Assembly (NCBI RefSeq): GCF_001306175.1
Contig: NZ_LGKN01000003.1
Coordinates: 372,001 to 436,000, forward strand
Length of the DNA stretch: 64,000 bases
Reading direction: 5' to 3'
Source of the DNA: Ardenticatena maritima
GTDB taxonomy: Bacteria > Chloroflexota > Anaerolineae > Ardenticatenales > Ardenticatenaceae
Shown here: positions 5,527 through 22,760 of the stretch, in pieces
Numbering within the stretch: position 1 is the stretch's first letter
Layout: the number at the start of each line of letters is the position of its first letter
Made by a program: the position numbers and the translations under genes
The notes under the pieces: generated by a model
Databases searched by the model: none
What the model was told of the DNA's origin: nothing
What the model saw: only the letters and a program-made list of their open reading frames with translations

Positions 5527-6644
5527 GGCCGATAGCGTGTTTGCACGGCTTGTTGCCACGCCGTGTTGAGTTCCTCAGGCGTTTGCCCGCGCCATGTTGT
5601 CAGCAGATGCTCTATTTGCTCCGATGAAGTGGCTTCGACGATTTGTGCGACCTGCCCCGTTGTTAGTCCTTCGCTCAGCAACCAGAGGTATGCGGTTGTT
5701 TGCAGGGTTGCGGGCGCTTCTCCCGACAGGACAGCGGCAAGCGGGGGGACATCTGCGCCCCATGTTTCGACTTCGCGAATGAGGGCGGTGTCGAAGAAGG
5801 GGTGCACCTCGTTCACCTGCCCCACCCAAAAACGCGCTACGGCTTGCAACGCCGCGCGTTGGCGGGGTGAAGCGGTTTCTACGGTCTGCAAAATCCCCCA
5901 GGCGATACGCGCACGCAACTCGGTTTCGGGCGCTAGGAAACCGTATGACGTCCACGGTGAGCGTGCCGCGATAAGCATGCCTTCATCCGTCTCTTGAAGC
6001 GTGACAGCCTCGAAGGGTTCCAGCGGGTCAATGGCAATCAGTAGAAGCGCCTCGTCGCGACTGCCCGTCAGGCGGCGCACATCTTCCAGGAAGGTGAAAA
6101 GGTCTGACAATGCGGGCGGGACGTCGCGCGCTTCATCCAGCCGATAGGTGATGCGGATGCCTTCGGCAAAAGGCAAAGTGGTTTGCGGACCCCACGTGGC
6201 GGTGACATTGGGGAATGTAGGTCGCCATTGCTCGCCGTCTTGCACAAAGTAGAGCCGCCAATACGCTGAAACAGGCACGCCGTCGGCGTCAAAAGTGCCG
6301 TTGAGCGAAACTTGTACAATGTTCGTCCCTTCGAGTTCAGCAACACGCTCAATGTGCCACTCCGTAAGAGGAACCCACAGGCGGCGGGGTTCGGTCGCCA
6401 GAACCGCCAGCCAGGCGGGGTCGGCGTTGGGGTCGGCCATGCTTTGCAAGGCGGCGGTGTCGCCCGCTTCCAGCGCTTCCAGGTAGGTCGCCACGTAGGG
6501 CGTGACGTTCTCGCGTGTACCGCCGACATTGCGCCCCAGGCGGACAGCCTGCCAGATGCTGCCCAGAATGGAGAGCACCAACAGCAGCAAGACCAGCACG
6601 AGCAAGCGCATATTCGCGCGTGAGCGTTCGCGTGTATCAATCAT
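5523..6644 (-). CDS. Unrecognised membrane-anchored protein
   Basis: 373 residues that I cannot assign to a family. The N-terminus is basic, followed by one long hydrophobic helix (about 13-33), so the rest is probably outside the cell membrane. The first extracytoplasmic part (about 45-150) reads like a small sheet-rich domain of the NTF2/DUF4440 type (YLEALEAGDTAALQSMADP, then VSAYWRLYFVQDGEQWRPTF); this is only a resemblance. The second half is helical and contains the W-rich C-terminus LLTTWRGQTPEELNTAWQQAV, similar in style to the end of peptidase-MA-like proteins but without a visible HExxH. GAGGG precedes the ATG at 6644. Confidence 0.7.
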   Translation of the reverse strand: MIDTRERSRANMRLLVLVLLLLVLSILGSIWQAVRLGRNVGGTRENVTPYVATYLEALEAGDTAALQSMADPNADPAWLAVLATEPRRLWVPLTEWHIERVAELEGTNIVQVSLNGTFDADGVPVSAYWRLYFVQDGEQWRPTFPNVTATWGPQTTLPFAEGIRITYRLDEARDVPPALSDLFTFLEDVRRLTGSRDEALLLIAIDPLEPFEAVTLQETDEGMLIAARSPWTSYGFLAPETELRARIAWGILQTVETASPRQRAALQAVARFWVGQVNEVHPFFDTALIREVETWGADVPPLAAVLSGEAPATLQTTAYLWLLSEGLTTGQVAQIVEATSSEQIEHLLTTWRGQTPEELNTAWQQAVQTRYRP

Positions 6645-6686
6645 CTGCTTCCCTCAATCCGAAAGGTTCAAGCCACCGACAAACCA

Positions 6687-6718
6687 AAACCTGACAGGTG
6701 GCGGCACCCGTCAGGTTT
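6687..6718 (-). terminator. Hairpin with ACCTGACAGGT core, likely terminator
   Basis: AAACCTGAC and GTCAGGTTT pair around an inner GGTG/CACC stem with one mismatch. It lies about 60 bases beyond the stop of the GlsB-like gene, which is transcribed towards it. No long T-run follows on either strand. The same core occurs in other intergenic hairpins of this window. Confidence 0.55.
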
Positions 6719-6779
6719 CAGAAACGGCTCACACTATAAGCAGAATGGCGCGACTGTCGAACGTGGTATGCTTGTTTGC

Positions 6780-7028
6780 TTAGCGTCGGCGGAAAATTGC
6801 CAGCAACAGAACCGCACCAATAAAAGCGGTCAGGAAACTGGCGAAAATGCCCGGGCGTGTGTGAAAGCCCGCCAATCGGAGCAAGAACCCGCCAACAATC
6901 CCACCGACGATGCCAAGCAGGATATTCGTCAAGCAGCCCTGGCGGTCATCTGTGCCCATGACGACACTGGCAGCCCAACCGGCCAGACCGCCAATCAAAA
7001 TCCACATCAAAAATCCAAGGCAACCCAT
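6780..7028 (-). CDS. GlsB/YeaQ/YmgE family stress-response membrane protein
   Basis: 82 residues with three glycine-rich membrane helices: FLMWILIGGLAGWAASVVMG, then ILLGIVGGIVGGFLL, then FLTAFIGAVLLLAIF and a basic RRR end. This matches the transglycosylase-associated (GlsB/YeaQ/YmgE) family, small inner-membrane proteins often induced by stress. The start at 7028 is chosen because GAGGAGG stands six bases before it and the family begins at MGxLxFLxWIL. An upstream in-frame ATG at 7124 would add 32 residues unlike the family and is rejected. Confidence 0.85.
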   Translation of the reverse strand: MGCLGFLMWILIGGLAGWAASVVMGTDDRQGCLTNILLGIVGGIVGGFLLRLAGFHTRPGIFASFLTAFIGAVLLLAIFRRR

Positions 7029-7181
7029 AGCGTCCTCCTCGTTGTGTTGGGAATGTGTGGGAGCAACGCCCCACATGCGAATATACGCGAGGCGAGCGGC
7101 GGCTGTTTCACCCCCTTCTTCCATTTGCCGCGCGTTCCATTTTTCGATAGTATGCCTTGCTAACTAATCTTGTCAACAAGA

Positions 7182-7532
7182 ATGCCTATGACCACACCAG
7201 CGAAAGAACCCAAGCCCAAACAACTTATCGTTGACCCCAAGCGCGCGCTCATGTACGTGCGTTGGCAAGATGACCATGAAAGCCTCATCCCGCTGCATGT
7301 GGTGCGCGAAGCCTGCCCATGCGCCTTTTGCGAGCAGGCGCGTCGTCGCCTGGCGCAGGGCGAGCCCGATGAGACGTTTTCGCGCGCCAGTATCGAACCG
7401 ACGGCGGTGAGCGAAGCGGGCAATTATGCGCTTCACATCTACTGGGCGGATGGGCACAGCGGCGGCTACTACACATGGTCGCTTTTGCGCTCGTTGTGCC
7501 CATGTGAAGCGTGCCAGGCGTCGCGTTCGTGA
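7182..7532 (+). CDS. DUF971 domain protein
   Basis: About 116 residues. The pattern RALMYVRWQDDHESLIPLHVVREACPC, then YALHIYWADGHSGGYYTWSLLRSLCPCEAC is that of DUF971, the small domain also found at the N-terminus of gamma-butyrobetaine hydroxylases and near Fe-S cluster (Mrp/ApbC) genes. Paired cysteines at both ends (CPCAFC, CPCEAC) could bind a metal. No clear ribosome site is visible. The ATG at 7182 is preferred, but a TTG at 7170 and an ATG at 7188 are possible. It lies 38 bases upstream of tldD on the same strand. Confidence 0.8.
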   Translation: MPMTTPAKEPKPKQLIVDPKRALMYVRWQDDHESLIPLHVVREACPCAFCEQARRRLAQGEPDETFSRASIEPTAVSEAGNYALHIYWADGHSGGYYTWSLLRSLCPCEACQASRS

Positions 7533-7570
7533 CGTACCGAATTCTATCAACCGAACAAAGGAGTTCTCCC

Positions 7571-9034
7571 ATGCAAGACCTTGTTCAGCGCGCTGTGGAT
7601 ACGGCTGTTGCCCTTGGCGCGCAGTACGCCGATGCGCGAATCGTCCACCAGCGGCACCAAAACATTCTCGTGCGGAACAGCGCCGTCGAAACGTTGCAGG
7701 AAACCGAAAGCCTCGGTTTGGGCGTGCGGGTGGTCGTAGATGGCGCGTGGGGGTTTAGCGCCAGCCATCTGCTCACCCCCCAGGAAATTGACCGCGTCGC
7801 CGCCGAGGCGGTGCGCATCGCCCGCGCCAGCGCCCGCGTACACAAACAACCTGTGCGGCTTGGTCCACCGGTAACCTCGCGCGGCTTCTACCAGACCCCC
7901 ATTGAGGAAGACCCCTTTGCGGTGTCGCTGGAAGAAAAAATCGCCCTTCTTCTGGAAGCCGATACCGCTATGCGCCGTGTCAATGGCGTGCGCATCACGC
8001 TTGCGAAACTTGCCGCCATGCGTGAACATAAATTCTTCGCCAACAGTGAAGGGGCGCTCACCGAGCAGGTGCTCTACGAGAGCGGCGGCGGCATTCAAGC
8101 CATTGCCGTGGGGAATGGCGACGTCCAGCAGCGCAGTTATCCGGGGTTGTTTGCCCAGCAACAAGTCACGGGGGGCTTTGAGCATGTCCGCCGCCTTGAC
8201 CTGGTGGGCAATGCCGAGCGCATTGCGCATGAAGCCGTTGAATTGCTGCATGCGCCGGTGGCACCGAGCGGGACGTTCGACGTGATTATTGACTCAACGC
8301 AGTTGGCGCTTCAAGTCCATGAAAGTTGTGGGCATCCTATCGAACTCGACCGCGTCTTTGGCACCGAAGCGGCGTTTGCCGGCACCAGTTTCCTCACGCC
8401 CGACAGGCTCTACACGTTGCGCTACGGGAGCGACGTCGTCAATATCGTTGCCGACGCCACCGCGCCGCTGGGGTTGGGCACCTTTGGCTGGGACGATGAA
8501 GGTGTGCCCGCGCAACGGGTGGATATCGTGCGCAACGGGCTCTTTGTGGGCTATTTGACCAGCCGCGAGACGGCACAACAATTGCACGAAATTGTGCCGA
8601 ATGCGCCCCCCACCAGCAACGGCACCATGCGCGCCGATGGGTGGAACCGCATCCCTCTCATTCGTATGACCAACATCAACCTCGAACCGGGGACATGGCG
8701 GCTTGAAGATTTGATTGCCGACACCGAGCATGGGCTCTATCTTGAAATGAACCGCTCATGGAGCATTGACGATAAGCGGCTCAACTTCCAATTTGGGGTA
8801 GAAGTCTGCCGCGAAATCAAAAACGGGAAACTTGGGCAACTCTACAAGAACGCGAATTACACCGGCATCACCCCTGAATTTTGGAGCGCGTGCGACGCCG
8901 TCTGCAACGCAGACTACTGGACACTCTGGGGCGTCACCAACTGCGGCAAAGGGCAACCCATGCAACTCAGCCATGTGGGGCATGGCGCTGCCCCCGCCCG
9001 TTTCCGCGGTATCCGCGTCTTCGGCACCCAGTAA
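7571..9034 (+). CDS. tldD: Metalloprotease TldD
   Basis: 487 residues, catalytic subunit of the TldD/TldE (PmbA) protease that degrades unfolded peptides and matures some RiPPs. The zinc site is visible as HESCGH at 250-255, the family's HExxxH motif, followed by PIELDR. AAAGGAG lies eight bases before the ATG at 7571, which decides against the longer frame opening at 7511. The partner gene follows after 45 bases, giving the usual heterodimer pair. No RiPP precursor is visible nearby, so the substrate is unknown. Confidence 0.93.
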   Translation: MQDLVQRAVDTAVALGAQYADARIVHQRHQNILVRNSAVETLQETESLGLGVRVVVDGAWGFSASHLLTPQEIDRVAAEAVRIARASARVHKQPVRLGPPVTSRGFYQTPIEEDPFAVSLEEKIALLLEADTAMRRVNGVRITLAKLAAMREHKFFANSEGALTEQVLYESGGGIQAIAVGNGDVQQRSYPGLFAQQQVTGGFEHVRRLDLVGNAERIAHEAVELLHAPVAPSGTFDVIIDSTQLALQVHESCGHPIELDRVFGTEAAFAGTSFLTPDRLYTLRYGSDVVNIVADATAPLGLGTFGWDDEGVPAQRVDIVRNGLFVGYLTSRETAQQLHEIVPNAPPTSNGTMRADGWNRIPLIRMTNINLEPGTWRLEDLIADTEHGLYLEMNRSWSIDDKRLNFQFGVEVCREIKNGKLGQLYKNANYTGITPEFWSACDAVCNADYWTLWGVTNCGKGQPMQLSHVGHGAAPARFRGIRVFGTQ

Positions 9035-9079
9035 TGCCGGGAACATGCAGGCAAAACGTGAAGGACAAAGGAGCCACCC

Positions 9080-10426
9080 ATGTTGAACGAACAAACCTTG
9101 CGCGACCTTGCCCAGACGGTGTTGCTCGCCAGCCGCGCAGATGAAACCGAAGTCGTCTTGCTGGCTACCCATGCCCGCCTGACCCGCTTCGCCAACAATG
9201 AAATTCACCAAAACGTTGCCGAGCATAACCTGGAAGCCCGTATCCGCGTGGTAAAAGGGGGGCGCGTGGGCGTGGCAATCAGCAATAGCGCCGACCGCGA
9301 CGCACTGCTGAAAACGCTCGAACAGGCCGAAGCGCTTGCCGCGAATACGCCGCCTGTGCCTGATTGGCCCGGCTTGCCGCACGATACGCGCCCCACCCCT
9401 GAAACCGAAACGTGGAGCGAAGCCACCGCCTCAGCCACGCCCGAACGCCGCGCCGACCTCGTAGGTGACGTCTGCCGCACTGCTGACGCGGCGGGGCATG
9501 TGGCGAGTGGGGCGCTCGAAACCAACACACAGGCGCTCTACATCGCCAACTCGCACGGCGTCGAACGCTATGTGCCGCGCACCGTGGCTTCGTTTGTGAC
9601 CGTGGTGATGAGCGACACAGGAAGCGGCTACGCCGCCGGCGCCCACCGCGACCTGAACGCCATTCCCGTTGCCGACCTGGGGCGTGAAGCCGTTGAAACG
9701 GCGACGCGCAGTCGCAACCCTATTGACCTGGAACCCGGTGTGTACGACGTCGTGTTGGACACCTACGCCATGGCGGATATCCTCTCGTTTGTCTGTTCGC
9801 TGGGCTTTGGGGGGCAAGCCTACGCTGAAGGACGCAGTTTTGTGAGCGGCAAACTGGGCGAGCAGGTGCTTGGTGAAAACATCACCATCATTGACGACGG
9901 CTTGTCGCCAGACGGGTTGCCCTTGCCGGTTGACTTTGAGGGGGTTGTACGCCAGCGCCTGCCCCTGGTTGAACACGGCGTTGCCCGTGCTGTGGCGTGG
10001 GATTCGCGGTGGGCGGCGCGCGCAGGCACAGAGAGCACTGGGCACGCCCTGCCCGCCCCCAACTGGTGGGGACCTGTGCCGCTGCATCCCCACCTGGCGG
10101 CTGGGGAGACCCCGCGCAGCGAACTGGTGCGCCATGTCGAGCGTGGTATCTACGTGACGCGCTTCAACTACACGCGCACCGTCAACCCCGGTCGCGTCAT
10201 CGTGACGGGGCTTACGCGCGACGGCACGTTCCTGATCGAAAACGGCGAAATCGTCGCCCCTATCAAGAACTTGCGCTTTACCCAAAGTTATGTTGAAGCA
10301 TTGCAAAATGTTGTGGCGTTGAGCCGCGAACGGCGCATACTGGCCTCTTTTGGCACGGTCGGCGCCATGAAAGTCCCTGCCGCCGTCATTCGCAACTTCA
10401 CATTCACGGGGAAAACGCAGTTTTGA
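9080..10426 (+). CDS. pmbA: TldE/PmbA protease subunit
   Basis: 448 residues, homologous to TldD but without HExxxH, as expected for the non-catalytic half of the protease. The N-terminal TRFANNEIHQNVAEHNLEARIRV stretch and the C-terminal glycine-rich core (GFGGQAYAEGRSF, GENITIIDDG) are family features. An AAAGGAG site precedes the ATG. The stop codon overlaps the TTG start of the next gene by three bases, so the RNA methyltransferase is probably translationally coupled. Confidence 0.92.
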   Translation: MLNEQTLRDLAQTVLLASRADETEVVLLATHARLTRFANNEIHQNVAEHNLEARIRVVKGGRVGVAISNSADRDALLKTLEQAEALAANTPPVPDWPGLPHDTRPTPETETWSEATASATPERRADLVGDVCRTADAAGHVASGALETNTQALYIANSHGVERYVPRTVASFVTVVMSDTGSGYAAGAHRDLNAIPVADLGREAVETATRSRNPIDLEPGVYDVVLDTYAMADILSFVCSLGFGGQAYAEGRSFVSGKLGEQVLGENITIIDDGLSPDGLPLPVDFEGVVRQRLPLVEHGVARAVAWDSRWAARAGTESTGHALPAPNWWGPVPLHPHLAAGETPRSELVRHVERGIYVTRFNYTRTVNPGRVIVTGLTRDGTFLIENGEIVAPIKNLRFTQSYVEALQNVVALSRERRILASFGTVGAMKVPAAVIRNFTFTGKTQF

Positions 10427-11541
10427 AGCGCAAACATCGTTCAGCCAAATCAAAATCCCGCCGCAGGCGAACCGAGGCGACGCAAAGCGCGCTGCCCGCC
10501 CCGCTCTACGAAGCCGACGTCGCGGATGGGCTGGAAGCGCTGGCGGCGGAAGAGGTGCGCAGACGCCTTCAGCCGCACGTCTCGATGGAGCCGGTGGCGT
10601 TGCGTGGTGCGGTGCGCTTCCGCTTTGGGGATGCGCCGCGCCGCCTGTTCGATTTGAAGACAGTGCTGGCGGTGTTCCAACTGCACCGCTTGGATGTGCC
10701 CCGCCCGCGCGCCTTGCTGGGCGACCAACATTGGCGCGCGCTCTGCACCGCCGCTGCTGCCATTGTGCACCTGCACCCACCTGGCGCATTTGAAACGTTC
10801 TACCTTAGCGCGGCGGGCGCGCACACCGCCACCATGCAGCGCATCGCCGAGGGAATGGCGAACCATCTGGGCTTGCGCCGCGTGCAAACACCCGACGAAG
10901 GGCACTTTCTCATGCGTATCCGTCGCCCCCCTGAAGGGAGTGCCGGATGGGATGTCTTGTTTCGCTTGACGCCACGCCCCTTGTCGGCGCGCGCGTGGCG
11001 CGTGTGCAACTACCCCGGCGCTATGAACGCGACCGTTGCCCATGCGATGGCGTTACTTACTGCGCCGCATCCTGATGATATCGTCTTCAATCCCTGCTGC
11101 GGCTCGGGGACGTTGCTCATCGAACGGGGGTTGATTGCACCTGCGGCGCGCTTGCTGGGGTGCGATATCGAACCCGCTGTGTTGGCGTGCGCCCGCGAGA
11201 ATGCGCTGGCGGCGGGCTTGGCGGAGCGCATCGAGTGGGAAGCATGGGACGCGTGTCAAACCCCACTTCCTGAGAAGAGCGTGGATGTCATTCTCAGTGA
11301 TTTGCCGTTTGGCGGCTTGGTCGGCTCGCATGCTGAGAACGAGCGCTTGTACCCCGCTTTTGTGCAAGAAATGGCGCGCATCGCTCGCCCTGGCGCTCGC
11401 GGGGCGCTCATCACCCACGAAGTGCGTTTGCTGAACACCGTTCTGGAAGCGCAAACAGCGTGGCGTGTGGAACAGGTGCTCAAAGTGACACTGGGGGGGC
11501 TGCACCCACGCATTTTCTTACTGCGTCGCCAAGTGTGGTGA
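10423..11541 (+). CDS. THUMP-type RNA methyltransferase (Trm14/TrmN/RlmL-like)
   Basis: 372 residues. The basic N-terminal tail is followed by a THUMP-like RNA-binding part (about 25-165) and a class I methyltransferase domain (about 190-365). SAM motif I reads NPCCGSGTLLIE and the catalytic loop reads SDLPFGG, the (D/S)xPF-type motif of N2-guanine methyltransferases. It probably makes m2G in tRNA or rRNA; which RNA cannot be told. It starts with TTG inside the pmbA stop region. An ATG start is not available until well inside the conserved domain. Confidence 0.82.
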   Translation: MKRKHRSAKSKSRRRRTEATQSALPAPLYEADVADGLEALAAEEVRRRLQPHVSMEPVALRGAVRFRFGDAPRRLFDLKTVLAVFQLHRLDVPRPRALLGDQHWRALCTAAAAIVHLHPPGAFETFYLSAAGAHTATMQRIAEGMANHLGLRRVQTPDEGHFLMRIRRPPEGSAGWDVLFRLTPRPLSARAWRVCNYPGAMNATVAHAMALLTAPHPDDIVFNPCCGSGTLLIERGLIAPAARLLGCDIEPAVLACARENALAAGLAERIEWEAWDACQTPLPEKSVDVILSDLPFGGLVGSHAENERLYPAFVQEMARIARPGARGALITHEVRLLNTVLEAQTAWRVEQVLKVTLGGLHPRIFLLRRQVW

Positions 11542-12526: not shown

Positions 12527-15500
12527 TTATCCCAGATATTGAAGAAAAGCCTGCTTGGTCTGCTCAAACGCCTTTTCGACCTCTGGGAAGCGGGCTTCGA
12601 TAGTATCCCATTCTCCATCACGCCCTAACGCCTCTAATTCGCGACAGATTTCCGAAAATGGCATAGCGCCAATCGTGGCTGCGCTCCCTTTCAGGGTGTG
12701 CAGACAGCGCACAAATGTCTCTTGGTCGCGTGTGGTGATGGCGTCGCGGGCTTCTTGCAAGCGTTGGGCGGCGTCTTCCAGAAAAACGGGAGCCATATCG
12801 GGCAACATTTCTTCAACCAGATCGCCCAGGCGCTGGTGCAGTTGCTCAAAGTCAATGAAGGCGGCGGGCGTTTTGGGGGCGTGTGTGCTGTGATGCGCGT
12901 CTTCGTGGGGTGGACAGCGCAATAATGCTTCTACGAGCTCTTCAACCAGAATGGGTTTGCTAATGTAATCGTCCATGCCGGCTTCAATGTATTCTGTGCG
13001 ATGGTGTGGGAGGGCGTTTGCCGTCATCGCAATGATACGGGGGCGGTGTTCACCCCATTCCTCAATAATGCGTCGCGTCGCTTCGACGCCGTCCATTTCG
13101 GGCATTTGTACGTCCATGAGCACAACATCGTAGGGTTGTCGGCGTAGGGCGGCTAGCACTTCGTGCCCGTTTGCCGCTACGTCGGCGCGGTAGCCGAGGC
13201 GCTCAAGCATTCGCAGCGCAACTTTTTGGTTGACGACGTTATCCTCGGCGAGCAAAATGCGCAATGGGTGGCGCTCGCCCAAGGTCGCATCGAAGAGGCG
13301 CGTGCTTGATTCTTGAATATCTTGCGCGGAGATGACGTCTTGTTGCTCGCCCAACACGTCGAGCAACGCGTTCATCAATGGTTCAGGCTTGATGGGTTTG
13401 ACGAGGTATTTTTCAAACAACCCCGACTCGCGGACTTCACGGCGCTTTTCAATGGATGTTAGCAAGATGAGCGGTAGCCCGCGTGCGGTGGGAATGGTAC
13501 GAATTTGATGCGCAAGCATGAGCCCGTCTATTTCGGGCATTTGCATATCGAGAATAGCAACATCGAAAATATCCCCCCGATACAGGAGCGCCAATGCTTC
13601 CTGCGCTGAGGCAACTGCAACCACCGATATCCCCCACTTGTCGAGTTGGCGGGTCAGAATAGTGCGGTTGGTGGCGTTGTCATCCACTACAAGCACACGT
13701 TTGTGCAGGAGTTGGCGGGGTTGCGCCATGCGACGTATCACTGTTGTGGGGCTTGCGGCGACGCGCGCCTGGATGGTGAAGTAGAACGTTGACCCTTTGC
13801 CGACTTCACTTTCCACCCAAATCTCGCCCCCCATCAGTTCGACCAGACGCTTTGAGATGGCAAGCCCCAAGCCTGTGCCGCCATAGCGGCGGGTGGTGGA
13901 ACTATCAACTTGCTGAAATGCCTGGAAGAGCCGATCGCGTCGTTCTGGGGGAATGCCGATACCGGTATCGCGCACCATGAATTGCAGCTGATACTGCTCG
14001 CCTTCCCGTTTGACCACGGAGACGCCAACAAACACCTCGCCCTCTTCTGTGAACTTGACCGCATTCCCCACCAGGTTGACAAGCACCTGTCGCAAGCGTG
14101 TCACGTCGCCTTCGATGACGGGGGGGACGTCATCCTCGATGAAGTACGCCAGCTCCAACCCTTTTTCTTGCGCCTTGGCGACCAGCAGGTCGAGCGCGGT
14201 TTCCACACAATCGCGCAAGTCGAAGGGGATGGATTCCAGCTCCATCTTGCCCGCTTCGATTTTGGAGAAGTCCAGAATGTCGTTGATGAGAGCGAGCAGT
14301 GTGTCGCCGCTGTTGCGAATGGTCTCGACGAAGTCGCGTTGTTCGTTGGTGAGCGGTGTGTCAAGAAGCAGGTTGGTCATGCCGATGATACCGTTGAGGG
14401 GGGTGCGAATTTCGTGGCTCATGTTGGCAAGGAATTCGGATTTGGCGCGGGCGTAGGCTTCGGCTTCTTCGCGTGCGCGCACAAACTCGCTCACATCGTG
14501 GTAGATGCCAATTGCGCCGACTTGCTGACCGTCAACGAACACGGGCACGCCAAAAATTTCTACGTCGAACTCGCTGCCATCTTTGCGTTTGCGCCGCGTG
14601 GTCAGATGCACAACCTCGCCGGCGGTGGCTTGCGCCGTGGCTTGCAGGGCTTCATCTTTGCGTTCTTCACTCACAATAAGGTCGTCTAGTGTAACGCCAA
14701 TTACCTCTTCCGCTGTGTAGCCAAACATGCGCTCGAAGGCTGCGTTGCATGCGGTGATGCGTTGCTCCAAATCAAGCGCGACAATGGCGACAGGACTGTG
14801 GTTGAAAATGGCTTCAAAGAAGCGTTTTTGGCGGCGCAATTCACGTTCGGCTTCAACTTCGCGGGTAATGTCGCGTGCTGAACCGCGCACATAGCGCTGT
14901 TCACCGTTTTCTAGCAGTACAGAAGTGTTGTAGCGCAGAAGACGTGTGTCGCCTTGCTTTGTTTGGACGTACATCAGCCCGGCGGCGTGCCCACGCCGTT
15001 TGAGAATTTCCAGATACGTGGCAAAACGGGCGCGATGTTCAGGAACAATGAATTCGGCGATGGAGCGACCAATCACTTCTTCGGGGGTGTAGCCGAGTGT
15101 GCGTTCAACGGCGGGGTTGATGCTCAAAAAGACGCCGTCCATATCGTGCATGAAGAGCAAATCGCTGACGTTCTCGAAAATATCGCGGTAGAGCGCTTCC
15201 GAACGACGCAGGGCTTCTTCGGCGGCAACTTGGGCGCTGATGTCGCGTGCCACAACTTGGATGGCCGGTTTGCGCCCCCATTCAGTGGGCATGGCGGCCA
15301 CCTCTGCGTCAAAAGCTGTGCCGTCAAGGCGTACCAATTTTTCGCGCACAAGCGGGGCCGGCTCGTCCCACTCCGTCAACGCGCGAATTCGCTCCCGTAC
15401 CATGTCCAGGTTGTCTGGATGGACAAAATCAAGAACGGCGCGGCCAATCAGGTCCTGTGGTGAATGCGCTCCCAGCATGACGGCGGCGGTTTCGTTGGCG

Positions 15501-16306
15501 AAGACGATACGCCCTTCACAATGCACAATGACCGCATCGGGGAGCATATCCACTAATTGGCGGTAGCGGTTTTCGCTGCGGCGCACTTGTTTGAGGGCGT
15601 CTTGCAGGGCGATGGTGCGCTGTTCAACTTCCTGTTGCAGGGAAGCGCGCAGGCGTTCCAGTTCGGCGTTGGTGGTGGAGAGTTCGGCGTTGAGTTGTAC
15701 AAGGTCATTTTGCATGGCGAGCATGTCTGCGATAACGCGCAAGGTGATGTTCCGCAAGGCGTACAGAATGACCAGAATAAAGAGAAAAATGCCGCCTTCC
15801 AGTAACCAGTTCAGTGAAGAGGTGGGCGGTGAGAGTCGCCATGCCGTGGGGATTGGCAAAACCGGCGTGCTGTTGAGCCAGATAACGAGACCGAGCGCGA
15901 GAGCGGCTTGAAGCGCACCGTGGAAAACCCCAACAATGGTGGCGGTGAGGATAATGACCAACAAAAAGGTGAGAAGCGTGGCTGTGGAGATGGTGCCCAT
16001 GAGGAGCGAGATACTGACAAGCCCCAGCCAAAACCCCCACCCGAAAAGGAGCATGGCCGCACGTTCTTTGCCGCGCCATGCCAGCCACGTCGTTCCCAGA
16101 GAGAAAAGTGTGAAGAGAGCGGCAATGCGACTACTGAGCGCCAAAGGGGTTTGGGTTAGAGCGATGAAAAGGGTGACAAGCGCGTCGAAGAGTGTGTTGC
16201 CCAAGAGCAGATAGCGCGCAAACGGTGCGAACGAGAGGGACAAGACCTGTTCGACGTTCTTTTGCTGGTGGTCTACTGGTCGTGTCTCGTTGACTGACGG
16301 CTGCAT
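12527..16306 (-). CDS. Hybrid sensor histidine kinase (6TM-PASx3-HisKA-HATPase-RECx2-HPt)
   Basis: 1259 residues. About six membrane helices lie in 30-190, a coiled coil at 200-245, and three PAS domains at about 246-360, 370-485 and 492-610. HisKA has the phospho-acceptor His631 in [10 protein letters not shown]. The HATPase has the N box near 746, DTGIGIP near 780 and [11 protein letters not shown] near 810-820. Receiver 1 has Asp920 (ILDMQMPE), receiver 2 has Asp1065 (LMDVQMPE), and the C-terminal HPt has His1203 in CLHTLKGSA. This is a complete BarA/ArcB-like phosphorelay in one chain. It needs a separate response regulator, and none with a DNA-binding output is adjacent. A GGGAG site lies about eight bases before the ATG. 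Confidence 0.93.
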
Positions 16307-16370: not shown

Positions 16371-16396
16371 GCCCGATGTCTATGGGAACATCGGGC
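16371..16396 (-). terminator. Terminator of the partner-switching operon
   Basis: Stem GCCCGATGT/ACATCGGGC with an 8-base loop. On the minus strand it is followed by ATTTTCTTTTC. It lies 20 bases beyond the last gene of the leftward operon. Confidence 0.8.
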
Positions 16397-16416: not shown

Positions 16417-16803
16417 CTATCCCGCCACGATGTAGGAGCCCAAAAAGATGAGCGCCCCGCCAATGAAATCGCGTGGGAAGCGTGGTTGTTCGCCAAACAC
16501 AAGAAACGAGAAAATGATCATCATCAACAATGAGAGTTCAGCCGCAAGGGCGGAGCGCGCAATACCAATCAGGCTGAAAAGCGCCAGCCGCACGACGGAC
16601 GCCGTGAGGGCAAGCGCCAGCCCGCTGATGAAGAAGGGATTGGTTACAACGCGAAACACGTAGGTAAGCGTTGACATAAGGTCGCGATCCATCGGCATAG
16701 CGCCAATGCGCGTGAATGCCATGCCATACATCACGTACGAGATGGCAACTAACGTCGCAAACAGGAAGTTGACGCCCCATGTGAGCAAAAGTGTCTTGTC
16801 CAT
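16417..16803 (-). CDS. 4-TM EamA/SMR-like small transporter-type membrane protein
   Basis: 128 residues from the ATG at 16803 (GGAGC upstream). An alternative ATG at 16854, with GGGGAGG inside the upstream gene, would add a charged 17-residue tail. Four hydrophobic helices: about 8-30, 47-66, 70-90 and 95-125. The end, LLMMIIFSFLVFGEQPRFPRDFIGGALIFLGSYIV, resembles the last helices of an EamA repeat (E in the FGE position) and of ArnE/ArnF-type subunits that flip undecaprenyl-linked sugars. It is the last gene of an operon that begins with a polyprenyl-phosphate glycosyltransferase-like gene. A role as a glycolipid flippase subunit is plausible but inferred. Confidence 0.75.
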   Translation of the reverse strand: MDKTLLLTWGVNFLFATLVAISYVMYGMAFTRIGAMPMDRDLMSTLTYVFRVVTNPFFISGLALALTASVVRLALFSLIGIARSALAAELSLLMMIIFSFLVFGEQPRFPRDFIGGALIFLGSYIVAG

Positions 16804-16855
16804 ATGCCTGCTCCGTTTTTCTTCAAGATGATCGAGTGTCTCGATGCGTTGCATT

Positions 16856-17515
16856 TCACAACACCTCCCCCGCACGTTCAAGCAGTGCGCGACTGCGTTC
16901 CAGTACCGGGTCGTTTTCTGGCGGCATGAACGCTGTTGGCAACGGGAGCATGCCGAGTGATGCAAACAGCATTTCCGAGCGTGAAAGGACCAGCGAGAAG
17001 GGCGGCAGGTGCTCCAAAGGAAGGGTTGCCGCCTCTTGTTCTTCAGGCGGTAGAACGCTGCGAATGACGGCGGCGTCCTCTGACAGGTTGAAGAGCACGC
17101 GCGCGAGCGTTGCACGGGCATTTTCAGCGTCAAATGGGACGCCGGCGCGTGCGCTGATTTGCGCCATGAGATTGGCGATTTCCCTGGCACGCAACCGTTT
17201 GCGCGTGTTGGGGGCGCGGATAAAGAGAGGGTCGCTCGCTTTGAGATTGTTGCGCTCTATCCACGCGTGCAATGCTCGCGCTGCCCGTTGGTTGAGCGGT
17301 ACGATGGCATGATGGCGAAGCCCGCGGTGGAGCATGAGCCAGCGCCCATCGGCGCTGATGTCGCGTACATGCAAGCGTGCCATGTCGGCGGGGCGCAACC
17401 CTGTGTTGAATGCCAGCGTCACGATGAGCGCGTCGCGTTCACCTTCCCACGTGCCGGTGTCGCAAGCGGCGTAGAGCCGGGCGACGTCGTCAGGTGTGAG
17501 TGCGGGCAGCGACAT
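16856..17515 (-). CDS. Tyrosine-recombinase-like protein lacking catalytic C-terminus
   Basis: 219 residues. The front (about 5-120) matches the catalytic-domain start of phage-integrase-type recombinases: an LTPDDVARLYAA helix, NTGLRPADMARLHVRDI carrying the first catalytic Arg, and IVPLNQRAARALHAW. The rest lacks the expected HxLRH box, the following His/Trp and the tyrosine. Where they should be the sequence reads FDAENARATLARVLFNL, then a Pro/Glu-rich tail. The N-terminal core-binding domain is also absent. It is therefore unlikely to recombine DNA and may be a DNA- or protein-binding relic. The start at 17515 has AAAGGAGG seven bases upstream and overlaps the receiver gene by 26 bases, so it is firmly within the operon. 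Confidence 0.65.
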   Translation of the reverse strand: MSLPALTPDDVARLYAACDTGTWEGERDALIVTLAFNTGLRPADMARLHVRDISADGRWLMLHRGLRHHAIVPLNQRAARALHAWIERNNLKASDPLFIRAPNTRKRLRAREIANLMAQISARAGVPFDAENARATLARVLFNLSEDAAVIRSVLPPEEQEAATLPLEHLPPFSLVLSRSEMLFASLGMLPLPTAFMPPENDPVLERSRALLERAGEVL

Positions 17516-17903
17516 GGTCGTCCTCCTTTGGCGTCTCTGTCGAGCGCAGGAGCGTTTCGACGGTTTCAATCAGCCGCCAGGAACTGACCGGCTTGGTCAG
17601 ATACCCGTCAACATGTTCTTGCTGAGCACGCTCACGGTCGAACTCATCATTGCTGGCTGTGAGCATAACAACGGGCAGGTTGCGCCATGTTTCATGCGCG
17701 CGCAGGTGCGCCAGCAATTCCCATCCGTCCATCACGGGCATTGTCACATCGACAATCACCAGGTCCACGGGTGATGTTTCCAACAGCGCCAGAGCTTGGC
17801 GGCCGTTGGCGGCGGCAAGCACATGAAAGCCATGCTGGCGCAGCACAAAGCCGATGGTGCGTGTGATGACAGGTGAATCATCTACAACGAGAATGGTTGC
17901 CAT
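17490..17903 (-). CDS. Single-domain response regulator (receiver)
   Basis: 137 residues, essentially one CheY-like receiver. The acidic pair is in VVDDSP (residues 7-9), the phospho-acceptor Asp is in VIVDVTMPVMDG, the Thr/Ser is in VVMLTAS and the Lys is in YLTKPV. A short charged tail follows. It has no output domain, so it must act by protein contact, perhaps on the phosphatase or the recombinase-like protein of the same operon. Its start lies eight bases after the STAS gene stop. Confidence 0.92.
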   Translation of the reverse strand: MATILVVDDSPVITRTIGFVLRQHGFHVLAAANGRQALALLETSPVDLVIVDVTMPVMDGWELLAHLRAHETWRNLPVVMLTASNDEFDRERAQQEHVDGYLTKPVSSWRLIETVETLLRSTETPKEDDHVAARTHT

Positions 17904-17911
17904 AGCGCCTC

Positions 17912-18250
17912 CTAGAAGCGTTGCAACGCCTCCTCTGGTGTTTCGGCGATGTCAAAGACACGGTCGAACTTCGTCAGGTGCAGAATGCGACGCGCCGCCT
18001 CATGGTAGGGCCACACAAGTTTCACGTCGCCCCCTTTTTCACGGGCGCGTTTCAACAGGCTGACGATGACAGCCATCCCGGCACTATCCATGAATGGCAC
18101 ATCGCGCAGGTCGAGCACGAAACGGGTAACGCCTTCATCGAGCAGGGCATACAGACGTTCGCGCACGTCCGGCGCATTGAAGGCGTCTAGACGTTCTGTC
18201 AGTGTCACAACGGCGGTGCGGACCACGTGTTCTTTCACGGCGATACTCAT
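17912..18250 (-). CDS. STAS-domain anti-sigma factor antagonist
   Basis: 112 residues, a lone STAS domain of the SpoIIAA/RsbV type. The phosphorylatable serine lies in PFMDSAGMAVIV. In partner switching the anti-sigma kinase phosphorylates this Ser and a PP2C phosphatase removes the phosphate. The unphosphorylated form captures the kinase and frees its target. Kinase-like and phosphatase genes stand directly upstream in the same operon. One of two STAS genes here. Confidence 0.92.
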   Translation of the reverse strand: MSIAVKEHVVRTAVVTLTERLDAFNAPDVRERLYALLDEGVTRFVLDLRDVPFMDSAGMAVIVSLLKRAREKGGDVKLVWPYHEAARRILHLTKFDRVFDIAETPEEALQRF

Positions 18251-18265
18251 AGGAGCCTCCTCTTT

Positions 18266-18739
18266 TCACCATTTGACGACAAGCCGCCAATGATTGCGTG
18301 ATGCTTCGGGAGTGTACACCACTTCATCAACCAATTGGCGCACCAGAAAAAGCCCGTATCCGTGCACTTGCGGTTCATCGAGGTTGGGTTCACGTACACT
18401 GGAAGGGTCAAAGCGTACACCGTAATCGTACAGATTGATTTCAAGCTGCTGGGCGTCTTCATCCAGGAAGAAGAGCACTTGAATGCGCCCGTTTTCAATG
18501 TCCTTGTAAGCGTGGTTGACGATGTTGGTGCAGATTTCATGCACCGCGAGTTGGGTGTTGTAGGTTTTGATTTCGCGCTCAGGAATATTGGACATCCGCT
18601 CAAACAGCGCCTCCACACAACTCCCGACAACATTGAGGAAGCGGTGTTCGGCTGGGATGTTGAGCTCGACGACATGGTAGGCGTGATCGAATGTGGCTGT
18701 CTGGTTTTGAGATGATGGATTGCGTCGCCAGAATCCCAT
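18266..18739 (-). CDS. Anti-sigma factor-type serine kinase (RsbW/SpoIIAB-like HATPase)
   Basis: 157 residues with a single GHKL ATPase fold: N box HEICTNIVNHAY, G1-type DYGVRFDP, G2 HGYGLFLVRQLVDEV. This is the HATPase_c_2 form found in RsbW-type anti-sigma kinases. It should phosphorylate one or both STAS proteins and bind a sigma factor or other client. No sigma factor gene is in the window, so the client is unknown. Two bases separate it from the phosphatase gene upstream. Confidence 0.88.
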   Translation of the reverse strand: MGFWRRNPSSQNQTATFDHAYHVVELNIPAEHRFLNVVGSCVEALFERMSNIPEREIKTYNTQLAVHEICTNIVNHAYKDIENGRIQVLFFLDEDAQQLEINLYDYGVRFDPSSVREPNLDEPQVHGYGLFLVRQLVDEVVYTPEASRNHWRLVVKW

Positions 18740-18741
18740 TG

Positions 18742-20316
18742 CTACACCCCTTTCAGAACTAACAAGGTTTGGTCATCCAGCATGGGGGTGCCTGCGGTGA
18801 ACTCTTGCACTGCCTGATAGAGTGCGTTGCCAATCTCAGCCGCCGAACGGTGCCCCACAGAGGTGAGGATGTCGAATATGCGTTTCAATCCGAACATTTC
18901 TCCGCGCGTATTCGTGGCTTCATGGAAGCCGTCTGTTGCCACGACAAAGACATCGCCGGGGAGCAGTGAAACCTTGCGGTCCACGTGAAAACTCTCCGGC
19001 AAAACGCCCAGGGCGGTGCCGTCGGGTTCAACCAGGCGCGGCCCTTCGCCGGCGGGCATGTAGATGATGGGAGCATGCCCCGCGCTGGCGAGAAGAAATG
19101 TGCGCGAATCTTCCCGATAGGAGCCTACAAATGCCGTGGCGAACATGCTCACGTTCGTAAAATCTTCGTATAAGTCCTCATTCGCGCGCGCCAGAATGTT
19201 TTCCGGCGTAGGTGTGGGCAGGAATTTGGCTTTGGTGCGCAGGACGGTGCGCACAACCGCCATCAGCAAGGCGGCTGACATCCCCTTGCCGGAAACGTCG
19301 CCGACTGTGAAAATCATCCAACCATCGCCTTTCGGCACGAAGTCGTAAAAATCACCGCCAACGTGCAGCGAAGGCACCGATTTGGCGAAGATGTCGAGTG
19401 TCTCGAAATGGGGTGTTGTTTGCGGCAGCAATTGCGCTTGCACACGTTTGGCAAGCTCCATCTCGGTCAACAATCGAATGCGCTTCAGCTTTTCCTGATG
19501 AAGGATCTCATTTTCAAAGTACGCCCCTACCTGTTCGGCAATCGTCATAGCCAGCTTGACATCGGGTGTGGAGAAGGCTGATGGACGATTGCAAAGGACG
19601 AGAACGGCTTGCACTTCACCTTCGATACCAATCGGAATAGCCATCAGCGTTTGGACGTTGGCGGGGACAATGTGCCCTGTGGCTTGTGATTCGGTCAGGA
19701 TTTCCTGACGTTGGCTTACACGTTGCAAGTATTGGTGCAATGTTTCATCATCAAAGAGCGGTGTGGGGTGCCAGTGCACAAAATGCCCGTTGGGCACTTC
19801 GACCAGCATCCCCACGCTTTGCACGCGAAACAGACGTTGCGCCACGACGGCAATGGCGTGCGCCATATGGCGCAAGTCGGACGCCTGGCGTACCGACTCG
19901 GCCAGCTCATAGAGCGCCATCAATTGGTCCTGATATGTGCTGAGCTGGGCGCTCAATACGTCAAGTTCCTGATGTTGCGTGAGCACCTGGGCGACCAAGT
20001 GGGCTTCTGCGGCCAGGCGTTGGCGGTGGGCTTGCGTCGGCGGGACGCCGTAGAGCCGCATTTCGCCCAAGATGTTTTCGGCGTGGCGAATGGGCGCCCG
20101 CAAAGATGGAGGCACGTTGCGCCAGGGAAAATTGCTCGGTGAGACAAAAACGGCATGTTGGCGCGAAACAATGCTGACGGCGTGCGCCCCATTTTCATGC
20201 CAGCTATCCGCCCACATCGCCAGGTAGGTTGACAGGCATTCCCAACCCTGTTCTTCGGTAGAGAGCACCTCGGGCGTAAACAAACTGCCTGATGTGAGGA
20301 GTGGCTTGGTGCTCAT
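18742..20316 (-). CDS. GAF-SpoIIE (PP2C) serine phosphatase
   Basis: 524 residues. After an N-terminal sensory-looking part and a coiled segment (about 110-145), a GAF domain spans about 145-270 and a SpoIIE/PP2C phosphatase domain about 310-522. Metal-binding acidic motifs are visible: GGDFYDF near 320-326, VGDVSGKGMSAAL near 338-350, ATDGFHEA near 460-467 and LDDQT near 513-517. It should dephosphorylate the STAS partner(s) in response to a ligand of the GAF domain. The start at 20316 follows AAAGGAG; the frame extends 18 codons upstream but across that site. Confidence 0.92.
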   Translation of the reverse strand: MSTKPLLTSGSLFTPEVLSTEEQGWECLSTYLAMWADSWHENGAHAVSIVSRQHAVFVSPSNFPWRNVPPSLRAPIRHAENILGEMRLYGVPPTQAHRQRLAAEAHLVAQVLTQHQELDVLSAQLSTYQDQLMALYELAESVRQASDLRHMAHAIAVVAQRLFRVQSVGMLVEVPNGHFVHWHPTPLFDDETLHQYLQRVSQRQEILTESQATGHIVPANVQTLMAIPIGIEGEVQAVLVLCNRPSAFSTPDVKLAMTIAEQVGAYFENEILHQEKLKRIRLLTEMELAKRVQAQLLPQTTPHFETLDIFAKSVPSLHVGGDFYDFVPKGDGWMIFTVGDVSGKGMSAALLMAVVRTVLRTKAKFLPTPTPENILARANEDLYEDFTNVSMFATAFVGSYREDSRTFLLASAGHAPIIYMPAGEGPRLVEPDGTALGVLPESFHVDRKVSLLPGDVFVVATDGFHEATNTRGEMFGLKRIFDILTSVGHRSAAEIGNALYQAVQEFTAGTPMLDDQTLLVLKGV

Positions 20317-20341
20317 CCTGTGGCTCCTTTTCGGCGGTGCG

Positions 20342-20689
20342 TTATTCGGCAACCGGCTGGAAGTAGGCAAGCGCCTCTTCCTCTGTCTCGAAAATGCGGA
20401 AGGCTTTATCCAGGCGCGTCAATTCAAAGATGATGCGCACAGGCTGTTGCAAGCGGCAGAGAACGAGGTCGCCGCCATGCTGGCGTGCATGTTTCATGGC
20501 CTGCACCAGGGTGGCCAAGCCTGTTGAATCAATGAAGTTGACGCCGCTCAAATCAATGATGATGTTGTGCGTGCCGGCTTTCATGGTGTCGTCCAGCCAT
20601 TCAGCGACAGCAGGCGCCTGATAGGCGTCGAAGCGCCCTGCGAGGTGCAACATGGCTTTGCCTTCTTCATAGCGCGGTTTCAGTTCCAT
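20342..20689 (-). CDS. STAS-domain anti-sigma factor antagonist, second copy
   Basis: 115 residues, a lone STAS domain with the target serine in FIDSTGLATLVQAM. GGAGG lies eight bases before the ATG at 20689, excluding the longer upstream frame. It stands between the glycosyltransferase pair and the phosphatase gene. With the second STAS gene downstream, the module has two antagonists for one visible kinase, which allows competing or sequential outputs. Confidence 0.9.
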   Translation of the reverse strand: MELKPRYEEGKAMLHLAGRFDAYQAPAVAEWLDDTMKAGTHNIIIDLSGVNFIDSTGLATLVQAMKHARQHGGDLVLCRLQQPVRIIFELTRLDKAFRIFETEEEALAYFQPVAE

Positions 20690-20709
20690 AGGTATGCCTC
20701 CTTGTACTT

Positions 20710-21966
20710 TCAGTTGTGAGCAACAGTTTGTGATTCCTGCTTGGTCATCTGCGGTGTTTCGCCGCCATGCCGTTGTGCAATCAGCGTTTGGAAGTGCAAC
20801 AGATACCAATCCACCACGTCGTCCATGCCCAGCCCTTTCGACGCGAGATAGTTGCGCCACCCCACTTCACGGCGGTATTCATCATTCAGCAGGAATGTTT
20901 GAATAGCGTTCGCCAGGCTTTCGATGTCCCCGGGGTCAAAAAATTCGCCGGCATAGCCTTCTTCACGCACCAATTCGGCAAGGTCGCCAATATCCGGCAG
21001 GACGGCGGCTTTGCCATAGTTGCCTGCTTGGTGCAACACCCCGGAGCTCCCGGTGGTGGCTGTGTAAGGGAAGACCACCACGGCGGCTTCGCTGAAAATA
21101 CGCGGCACATCCTCTTCTGGAACGTAGCCCGTAAACCGAATGTTGGGCACGTCGCGGTATTGCTCGCGTACACGTTCCAGGTAGCCGGGGGCGTTCGGGC
21201 TGTTGGTGCCTGCAATCACCAATTCGAGCGGCATATCGAGCCGTTCTTGCAACAGGCGAAATGCTTCAATCAGCATTTCGACTTTCTTGTATGTGCCGAA
21301 CTTGCCAAAGGCGAGAATGCGGCGCGGTCCATCAGGCAAATCAAGTGAGGGTTGCGCCACTTCGTCGAACGAGCCATGCGGGGCAAGGATGACGTTTTTG
21401 GCTTTATACTTGGTTTCCAAAATCTCCACGTATTTGGGAATGGTGACCGCCACCAGGTCCGCCATCAAAATCATGCGAGTGACAACCGTGCCCGCGGTAC
21501 GAATAACCCATTCAACCAGCGGGTTGGTGGCGAAGCCGGCTTTTTTCAGGTCAACCGTTTCCATAATGTTGTGGAGCAGGACGACGCTGGGAATGCCCAA
21601 CATACGCACCAGGAGAGGCGTCATGAGCCCCAGGGTGGCGGGGATTTTGCGGTCGCCAAAACTGGCGAACTGAATGTTGAAAAGCACCACGTCGGGGCGT
21701 GTGGCGCGCACGGCTTGCATGATGCGCCAGGGATTGCGCCAATCGTTGAAACGCCAGCAGGTGCGGACGTGTACCGGCGCGAGCGGGTGTTGCGGCGTTC
21801 CCTCTGGGAACGTGTAGGTTTGCCCTGCTGGCAATTCGTCCGCATACACAATCACTTCGGCGACTTCCGGTTTGGCGCGCAGGTGGCGCACAAAGTGGTA
21901 GCCATACTCGTTCAACGTGCCTTTGCCGGGCGGATGGGTTGTCACAACACCAACACGCATGCTCAT
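20710..21966 (-). CDS. Glycosyltransferase, GT-B fold (GT4-like)
   Basis: 418 residues. N-terminal start VGVVTTHPPGKGTLNEYG, then a donor-binding half with RRILAFGKFGTYKKVEMLIEAF, NIRFTGYVPEEDVPRIFSEAAVVVFPYT and GSSGVLHQAGNYGKAAVLPDIGDLAEL, which is the family 4 pattern including the acidic donor-site region. The likely role is transfer of a nucleotide-activated sugar to a lipid or glycan. The ATG at 21966 overlaps the stop of the upstream glycosyltransferase in an ATGA arrangement, so the two are coupled. Acceptor and sugar are unknown. Confidence 0.87.
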   Translation of the reverse strand: MSMRVGVVTTHPPGKGTLNEYGYHFVRHLRAKPEVAEVIVYADELPAGQTYTFPEGTPQHPLAPVHVRTCWRFNDWRNPWRIMQAVRATRPDVVLFNIQFASFGDRKIPATLGLMTPLLVRMLGIPSVVLLHNIMETVDLKKAGFATNPLVEWVIRTAGTVVTRMILMADLVAVTIPKYVEILETKYKAKNVILAPHGSFDEVAQPSLDLPDGPRRILAFGKFGTYKKVEMLIEAFRLLQERLDMPLELVIAGTNSPNAPGYLERVREQYRDVPNIRFTGYVPEEDVPRIFSEAAVVVFPYTATTGSSGVLHQAGNYGKAAVLPDIGDLAELVREEGYAGEFFDPGDIESLANAIQTFLLNDEYRREVGWRNYLASKGLGMDDVVDWYLLHFQTLIAQRHGGETPQMTKQESQTVAHN

Positions 21967-22760
21967 GCGATGACCTCCTGTGGATACCCTACCTGGCGGA
22001 TGTAGAGACCGCGCCAATCGTTGACTTTGATGCGCACCATGTCCGCGAGGAATTGCCGCACGACCTTGAACGACTGCACTTTGGAGCCGGGGGCGTCTAT
22101 CCATTCCACGGGTACTTCGGCAACCCGATACCCGAACTTGTGGGCGAGGTAGAGAATTTCGAGATCGAATGAAAACCCCATGATGGTTTGTGCGCGGAAC
22201 AGGTGATGGGCGGCCTCTCGTGTGAAGAGTTTGAAGCCGCATTGCGTATCGTGAACGCCAATGTGCAGAATGTTGCGCACCATCCAGCGCAAGCCGGCGC
22301 TGAGAATACGGCGGTGGAGTGGGCGGTACTGTTCTTCGGCGCCCTCCACCGCACGCGAACCGACGGCGATGTCGTAGCCTTCGTCGGTGAGTTTGGTGAG
22401 CAACTTGTTTAGTTCTTCAATGGGGGTGGAATTGTCAGCGTCGGCAAAGAGAATGTAGCGCCCACGCGCCGCCAATACGCCGCGCCGCACAGCACTGCCT
22501 TTTCCGCCATTGCGCGGGGCTTGCAGTACGCGCACGTTGGCAAACCCCAATGATGTGACCAGTTCCACCGTCTTGTCGCGTGAGCCGTCGTCAGAGACAA
22601 TGAGTTCCCATGGGAAGCCGAGACTGCACACATGTGCGGCAATTGCGCCGATGGTCGGCAAAATGCGAATTTCTTCGTTGTAGGCTGGAATGACAACCGA
22701 CAAAAAAGGCTCGCCTTCAATCGGGGTGCTTTTCCAGCGTTCATAGGCTTCAAATGTCAT
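21963..22760 (-). CDS. Dolichyl/polyprenyl-phosphate glucosyltransferase-like GT2
   Basis: 265 residues, GT-A fold of family 2. LSVVIPAYNEEIRILPTI opens the domain, IVSDDGSRDKT holds the nucleotide-binding acids and ILFADADNSTPIEE holds the DAD metal motif. The pattern HDTQCGFKLFTREAAHHLF, then MGFSFDLEILYLA is characteristic of the DPG-synthase/ALG5 type, which charges a polyprenyl phosphate with sugar. No C-terminal membrane helices are seen. GGAGG precedes the ATG at 22760. This is the first gene of the nine-gene leftward operon. Confidence 0.87.
   Translation of the reverse strand: MTFEAYERWKSTPIEGEPFLSVVIPAYNEEIRILPTIGAIAAHVCSLGFPWELIVSDDGSRDKTVELVTSLGFANVRVLQAPRNGGKGSAVRRGVLAARGRYILFADADNSTPIEELNKLLTKLTDEGYDIAVGSRAVEGAEEQYRPLHRRILSAGLRWMVRNILHIGVHDTQCGFKLFTREAAHHLFRAQTIMGFSFDLEILYLAHKFGYRVAEVPVEWIDAPGSKVQSFKVVRQFLADMVRIKVNDWRGLYIRQVGYPQEVIA

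Follow-up and report, generated by a model that had tools for sequence, protein, structure and literature searches.

A partner-switching module in a glycosyltransferase operon of Ardenticatena maritima and its possible action on a glycan flippase

The window discussed here is a stretch of 64,000 nucleotides of the genome of Ardenticatena maritima, a member of the Chloroflexota (assembly GCF_001306175.1, contig NZ_LGKN01000003.1, positions 372,001 to 436,000). Its minus strand carries nine contiguous genes between positions 22760 and 16417, an arrangement already reported in the initial annotation and confirmed here, in which two glycosyltransferase genes are joined to a partner-switching module. 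In the order of the operon, these genes encode a glycosyltransferase of the GT2 family and of the polyprenyl-phosphate sugar synthase type (21963..22760, 265 residues), a GT4 glycosyltransferase (20710..21966, 418 residues), the phospho-acceptor-type protein STAS1 (20342..20689, 115 residues), a GAF-SpoIIE serine phosphatase of the PP2C type (18742..20316, 524 residues), an RsbW-like serine kinase of the HATPase_c_2 family (18266..18739, 157 residues), a second phospho-acceptor-type protein, STAS2 (17912..18250, 112 residues), a stand-alone response-regulator receiver (17490..17903, 137 residues), a degenerate tyrosine-recombinase-like protein (16856..17515, 219 residues), and an EamA/SMR-like protein with four transmembrane segments (4-TM protein; 16417..16854, 145 residues).

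The genes are tightly packed, with start-to-stop gaps along the operon of -4, 20, 25, 2, 15, 8, -26, and 1 bases, the first of which represents a 4-base overlap of the GT4 start with the GT2 stop, and a GGAGG-like Shine-Dalgarno site is found ahead of all nine starts. Short gaps and overlaps had been noted before, and among them only a 53-base gap is probably not real: an in-frame ATG is present at 16854, 1 base past the stop codon of the integrase-like gene and with GGGGAGG upstream. The 4-TM protein starting there has 145 residues, its homologues have 141, and 16854 rather than 16803 is most likely the start of the gene. The unit is closed, as previously proposed, by a single intrinsic terminator on the same strand (16371..16396), a hairpin with a 10-bp stem and a T-tract (minimum free energy -18.9 kcal/mol, z-score -3.0). 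The remaining terminator- and promoter-like matches are about as numerous as expected by chance (15 versus 14.0 and 4 versus 3.9, respectively). Internal promoters, which would split the unit, were not found above chance, but this is weak evidence, as the scan was for a sigma-70-like consensus only and the promoter type of the host may differ. Past the terminator, the same strand encodes a PAS-rich hybrid histidine kinase of 1259 residues with two receivers and an Hpt domain (12527-16306), which may be a partner of the lone receiver.

Pfam searches agreed with the earlier assignment of the first seven proteins. GT2 matches PF00535 (Glycos_transf_2, E-value 6e-32), and its closest solved structures are dolichol-phosphate mannose synthase (5mlz, E-value 9e-18) and ArnC (9bhc); a membrane helix was not detected in it by hydropathy. 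GT4 matches PF13692 (Glyco_trans_1_4) and PF00534. Single-sequence searches revealed no solved-structure relatives of GT4 or of the Wzx flippase discussed below. The receiver matches PF00072 (E-value 8e-30) and has an intact phospho-Asp pocket, with the DD, D, T, and K residues present.

All parts of a module of the Rsb/SpoII type are present, i.e., phospho-acceptor STAS proteins, a GHKL kinase with N and G2 boxes, and a PP2C phosphatase, and their conserved motifs place them in the same families as RsbU/RsbV/RsbW and SpoIIE/SpoIIAA/SpoIIAB. Both STAS proteins match PF01740 (E-value 5e-25 for STAS1) and score above the cut-off of TIGR00377. The phosphosite of STAS1 (IDSTG) is Ser or Thr in 44/44 relatives, and that of STAS2 (MDSAG) is Ser in 44/45. 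The phosphatase matches PF07228 (E-value 1e-42) and PF01590; its SpoIIE domain contains the motifs GGDF, GDVSGKG, TDG, and DDQT, and the metal-binding Asp is kept in relatives. The kinase matches PF13581 (E-value 1e-21) and has both an N-box (HEICTNIVNHAY) and a G2 box (HGYGLFL), the Glu and Asn of the former and the GxG of the latter being conserved in 34/34 relatives.

The association of these genes with the glycosyltransferases is highly conserved. With the window GT4 as the reference (orthologues ~57-71% identical), 46 distinct Chloroflexota loci, including the window, were obtained after removal of duplicates, and for 45 of them downstream sequence is available. Switch genes (STAS, SpoIIE, RsbW, or STAS2) directly follow GT4 on the same strand in all 45, which rules out chance adjacency and is the opposite of what the initial annotation had named as grounds for rejecting a functional connection, i.e., that the two sets of genes are never together in related genomes. 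Nearly all of these loci have a GT2 orthologue ahead of GT4, and the commonest order of this cassette is GT2-GT4-STAS1-SpoIIE-RsbW-STAS2-receiver-Wzx; all nine window genes are found in order in two loci (L079, in genome G351, and L113). Lone receivers and hybrid kinases are frequent neighbors of cassette loci.

Within the class, 18 other genomes from five other families have a GT4 orthologue, and more records were found across the Chloroflexota, including Chloroploca, Oscillochloris, Kouleothrix, and Herpetosiphon. Since no match above thresholds was detected in the genomes searched of the same genus and the same family, the distribution of the cassette is patchy. No switch genes are present near four distant GT4 homologues of ~31-35% identity (L083-L086). 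A contig scan with the SpoIIE protein as the query recovered no relatives, whereas the GT4-based search did.

The last position of the cassette is that of the presumed flippase. In most relatives, the slot downstream of the STAS2 gene is occupied by Wzx, a member of the MOP superfamily of ~430 residues and 12 or more helices. In the window, the last gene encodes the far smaller 4-TM protein, without a match to Polysacc_synt, and a search of the window's genome for relatives of the cassette Wzx was negative at E-values up to 10. When 40 cassette-bearing genomes were searched for both proteins, Wzx was found in 36; the 4-TM protein was found in none of these 36 and in three of the four without Wzx, i.e., the window's own genome, G351, and G396 (p ~ 4e-4 when kinship is ignored). 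The fourth genome without Wzx (G341) has a completeness of 78%, with the contig breaking off within the cassette. The 4-TM homologues in G351 and G396 are 55-59% identical to the window protein, and in the GT4 tree the carriers fall in two separate positions, which implies at least two lineages. Against the EamA profile, the 4-TM protein aligns over its whole length, but with 16.0 bits (E-value 0.015) it remains below the cut-off of 28.2. As judged from this distribution, a replacement of Wzx by the 4-TM protein, together with its recombinase-like neighbor, is the simplest reading, and the EamA/SMR-like protein is probably the flippase of the window's genome.

That neighbor had been described as recombinase-like. 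The family match holds (PF00589, Phage_integrase, E-value 3e-17), but it is confined to residues 6-153, and the protein is not an intact recombinase. Homologues with 34-38% identity are encoded in L079 and L113, both immediately ahead of the 4-TM gene, so that the two genes adjoin in all three known copies. In a three-way alignment of these copies, no HxxR motif or C-terminal Tyr was evident, and the first catalytic Arg is present in the window copy only. The protein is, therefore, probably noncatalytic. A conserved C-terminal tail (LPPFS...) is shared by the copies (window 16856-17515, L079:4958-5638, L113:6790-7494). Local transfer as part of a mobile unit, which a recombinase-like gene might suggest, was rejected; since the protein is degenerate and the same slot is kept in two other genomes, the gene looks resident.

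In several relatives, domains of the switch are fused to glycan proteins. In four genomes (G100, G227, G347, and G121), HATPase_c_2 segments and the Wzx flippase form one reading frame of 686-695 residues. The fusion gene comes after the receiver gene, and a separate full-length RsbW is encoded alongside. The first HATPase segment has the G2 box and lacks the N-box, whereas the second has the N-box and lacks the half with the G2 box. Because of this partial retention, the fused segments are probably docking modules rather than kinases. Structure prediction of the fusion protein from a single sequence was uninformative (predicted local distance difference test score, pLDDT, of 43). In the second type of fusion, a WecG/TagA-family glycosyltransferase and two STAS domains are present in one protein (genome G112, L043:4924-6453). 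Relatives, most of which span both STAS domains, were found in 14 other genomes of the class (L173-L186), giving a total of 15/396. This locus is separate from the operon cassette, with a nucleotidyltransferase-sugar transferase protein and a further set of partner-switch proteins encoded next to the gene. The strongest evidence for an action of the switch on glycan proteins comes from the HATPase-flippase and STAS-glycosyltransferase fusions. Other fusions join GT2 to GT4 (L106), a pyruvyl transferase to Wzx (L097, L106, and L124), and SpoIIE to RsbW (L125 and L139, neither of which has a receiver match). A fusion of a PHP-domain protein and a STAS domain is also found within the cassette (L069:7439-8566, L070:4107-5234).

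The initial annotation pointed out that no sigma factor is present in the operon, which is correct, and that sigma factors are the normal targets of partner switches, a general statement to which SypA, HmpV, and BtrV are known exceptions (PMC8256260). In a classical scheme of gene control, the kinase would sequester a sigma factor whose gene lies outside the operon, the glycan genes being in the unit as members of the same stress or biofilm program. The kinase indeed resembles a solved RsbW (6m36, E-value 1e-10), even if it scores below the cut-offs of the NCBIfam RsbW models, and sigma-70-like and possible ECF-type partial matches are present in all cassette genomes. However, when tested at the curated cut-off of TIGR02980, a SigB/F/G-class sigma factor was present in 0/19 cassette genomes (top score ~145 bits versus a cut-off of 234) and in 1/14 control genomes, which rules out this class as the target, and no sigma gene was recognised at the cassettes examined. 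Where Rsb/SpoII systems have a sigma factor of this class, the operon has glycan genes. The fusions also argue against a sigma target, as does the persistence of STAS with Wzx in Bacteroidota that have no kinase or phosphatase gene nearby (see below). The idea of a sigma target elsewhere is weakened by these data, and we consider this scheme unlikely.

SiaABC and HsbA systems act on diguanylate cyclases, and the control exerted by the switch might likewise be indirect, by way of a second messenger or some other enzyme, with the glycan genes as downstream clients only. The top NCBIfam match of the SpoIIE protein is SiaA, although far under the cut-off, and the frequency of lone receivers and hybrid kinases in the neighborhood would fit such a signaling role. 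Nevertheless, a diguanylate cyclase was not recognised in the cassettes examined, and the fusions point to the flippase and the glycosyltransferase. Indirect control, therefore, seems quite improbable.

GT4 orthologues with 50-60% identity are also found in Bacteroidota, among others in Runella, Chitinophaga, and Maribacter. A Wzx relative is present in 45/48 of these loci, with a STAS gene directly upstream in 36/45, and no SpoIIE or RsbW gene was detected near them. The phosphosite of these STAS proteins is Ser in 3/36 and Thr in 1/36, as compared to Ser in 41/41 Chloroflexota STAS2 proteins in the same alignment; in most of the Bacteroidota proteins, Leu, Ile, Met, or another residue takes its place (L103-L171). 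Since kinase and phosphatase genes were not detected at these loci and the Ser is mostly lost, the association of STAS, flippase, and GT4 can exist independently of the phospho-switch; the phospho-Ser is retained where kinase and phosphatase are present. In line with these sites, the STAS proteins in general might have a mainly structural or lipid-sensing role as flippase subunits, with phosphorylation tuning assembly rather than operating an on/off switch. A precedent is MlaB, a STAS-domain protein that binds and regulates the membrane lipid transporter MlaFEDB (PMC7367683). However, MlaFEDB is an ABC transporter for another lipid and is not known to be combined with a partner-switch kinase or phosphatase, whereas the Chloroflexota retain kinase, phosphatase, and phospho-Ser together. 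Such a mainly structural or lipid-sensing role is, in our estimation, very improbable.

In both phyla, cassettes are bordered by a trio of genes whose products are a membrane protein of ~1,000-1,100 residues, a protein with a Big/invasin domain, and a GH2-like TIM-barrel protein. The window's genome has a copy of this trio on the same contig, ~220 kb from the operon (L188, G000:C3:156000-175000, positions 5015-11438). Its membrane protein has 1126 residues, without a Pfam match, and is 67% identical to the cassette neighbor in G100. The trio may provide the polymerase and export functions of this glycan system.

Taken together, the partner switch is reasonably likely to act on a polyprenyl-glycan flippase/glycosyltransferase set and not on a sigma factor. 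The initial annotation had suggested direct control of glycolipid synthesis or flipping, and the conserved linkage, the fusions, the STAS-Wzx pairs of Bacteroidota, and the mutual exclusion of Wzx and the 4-TM protein are, at the sequence level, in favor of this suggestion. In the proposed mechanism, GT2 would make a polyprenyl-phosphate sugar, GT4 would extend or modify the glycan, and a membrane protein would flip it, i.e., the 4-TM protein in the window and Wzx in most relatives, sometimes with fused RsbW-like segments for STAS docking. The RsbW-like kinase would phosphorylate STAS1 and STAS2, and the GAF-SpoIIE phosphatase would strip the phosphates, cued by a ligand of its GAF domain and perhaps also by the receiver protein. 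A dephosphorylated STAS protein, most likely STAS2, would then leave the kinase and bind the flippase/GT4 assembly, thereby turning on glycan export or synthesis. The switch would thus exert direct physical control over the glycan proteins.

Several observations weigh against this proposal. Only two lineages contribute to the mutual exclusion of Wzx and the 4-TM protein, and one of the genomes, G351, is 82% complete. A flippase role of the 4-TM protein is deduced from its distribution and a sub-threshold Pfam match, and its structure model, which consists mainly of transmembrane helices, is of mediocre quality (pLDDT 71) and had no match in the PDB. The window's genome has neither the cassette Wzx nor the HATPase-Wzx fusion, so that the most direct evidence comes from relatives, and the HATPase segments of that fusion are partial. 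Besides, cassette genomes do contain sigma factors of classes other than SigB/F/G, so that a sigma target elsewhere retains some probability.

The closest experimental precedent appears to be SypA/SypE of Vibrio fischeri. SypA is active in its unphosphorylated form and acts below the level of transcription, on a target reported as unknown (PMC10120452). As in the operon, a STAS protein, a serine kinase, and a PP2C phosphatase are encoded within a polysaccharide locus, which includes glycosyltransferases and the Wzx flippase SypK (PMC5801674). Some Vibrio retain SypA without SypE (PMC4517449), which resembles the occurrence of STAS without the kinase in Bacteroidota. However, in SypE, kinase and phosphatase are joined around a receiver, whereas they are separate proteins in the operon. 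The syp locus, of the Wzx/Wzy type, is also larger, and the operon differs from it in having two STAS proteins and a different GT2-GT4 pair. Moreover, unlike in syp, the fusions in relatives name a candidate target. A complete phosphatase/STAS/kinase set is also formed by HmpU/HmpV/HmpW of Nostoc punctiforme, which affects motility and polysaccharide; the target of HmpV is reported as unknown, and the cited source describes no fusion to a glycosyltransferase or flippase (PMC8256260).

With respect to the flippase, a further parallel exists. ArnC, a structural relative of GT2, pairs with ArnE/ArnF, small EamA/SMR-like 4-TM subunits of the flippase for undecaprenyl-phosphate aminoarabinose. The operon likewise combines an ArnC-type GT2 with a small 4-TM protein, albeit with EamA similarity below the threshold. 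However, genes of the Arn pathway were not recognised in the cassettes, and the Arn system is not known to include regulation by a switch.

The proteins themselves are all of known kinds; what is new is their wiring to a flippase and the fusions. The chances are about even that they represent a distinct class of partner switches, in which STAS proteins would be regulatory subunits of Wzx or its 4-TM substitute, with RsbW-like docking in some lineages; the Bacteroidota form would be a kinase-free version, either ancestral or reduced, and the WecG-type glycosyltransferase with built-in STAS domains would follow the same principle. A search of the full text of open-licence papers revealed no report of a STAS- or HATPase-coupled glycan flippase or of such a post-translational control point. 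Whereas the targets of SypA and HmpV, two STAS outputs whose control of polysaccharide or biofilm is exerted below or outside a sigma factor, are reported as unknown (PMC10120452, PMC8256260), gene order, fusions, and gene replacement here name the flippase and the glycosyltransferases as the likely target. If this is true, bacteria would regulate the flipping of lipid-linked glycans through a small docking protein that is reversibly phosphorylated on serine, and the 4-TM protein would serve as a compact stand-in for Wzx.

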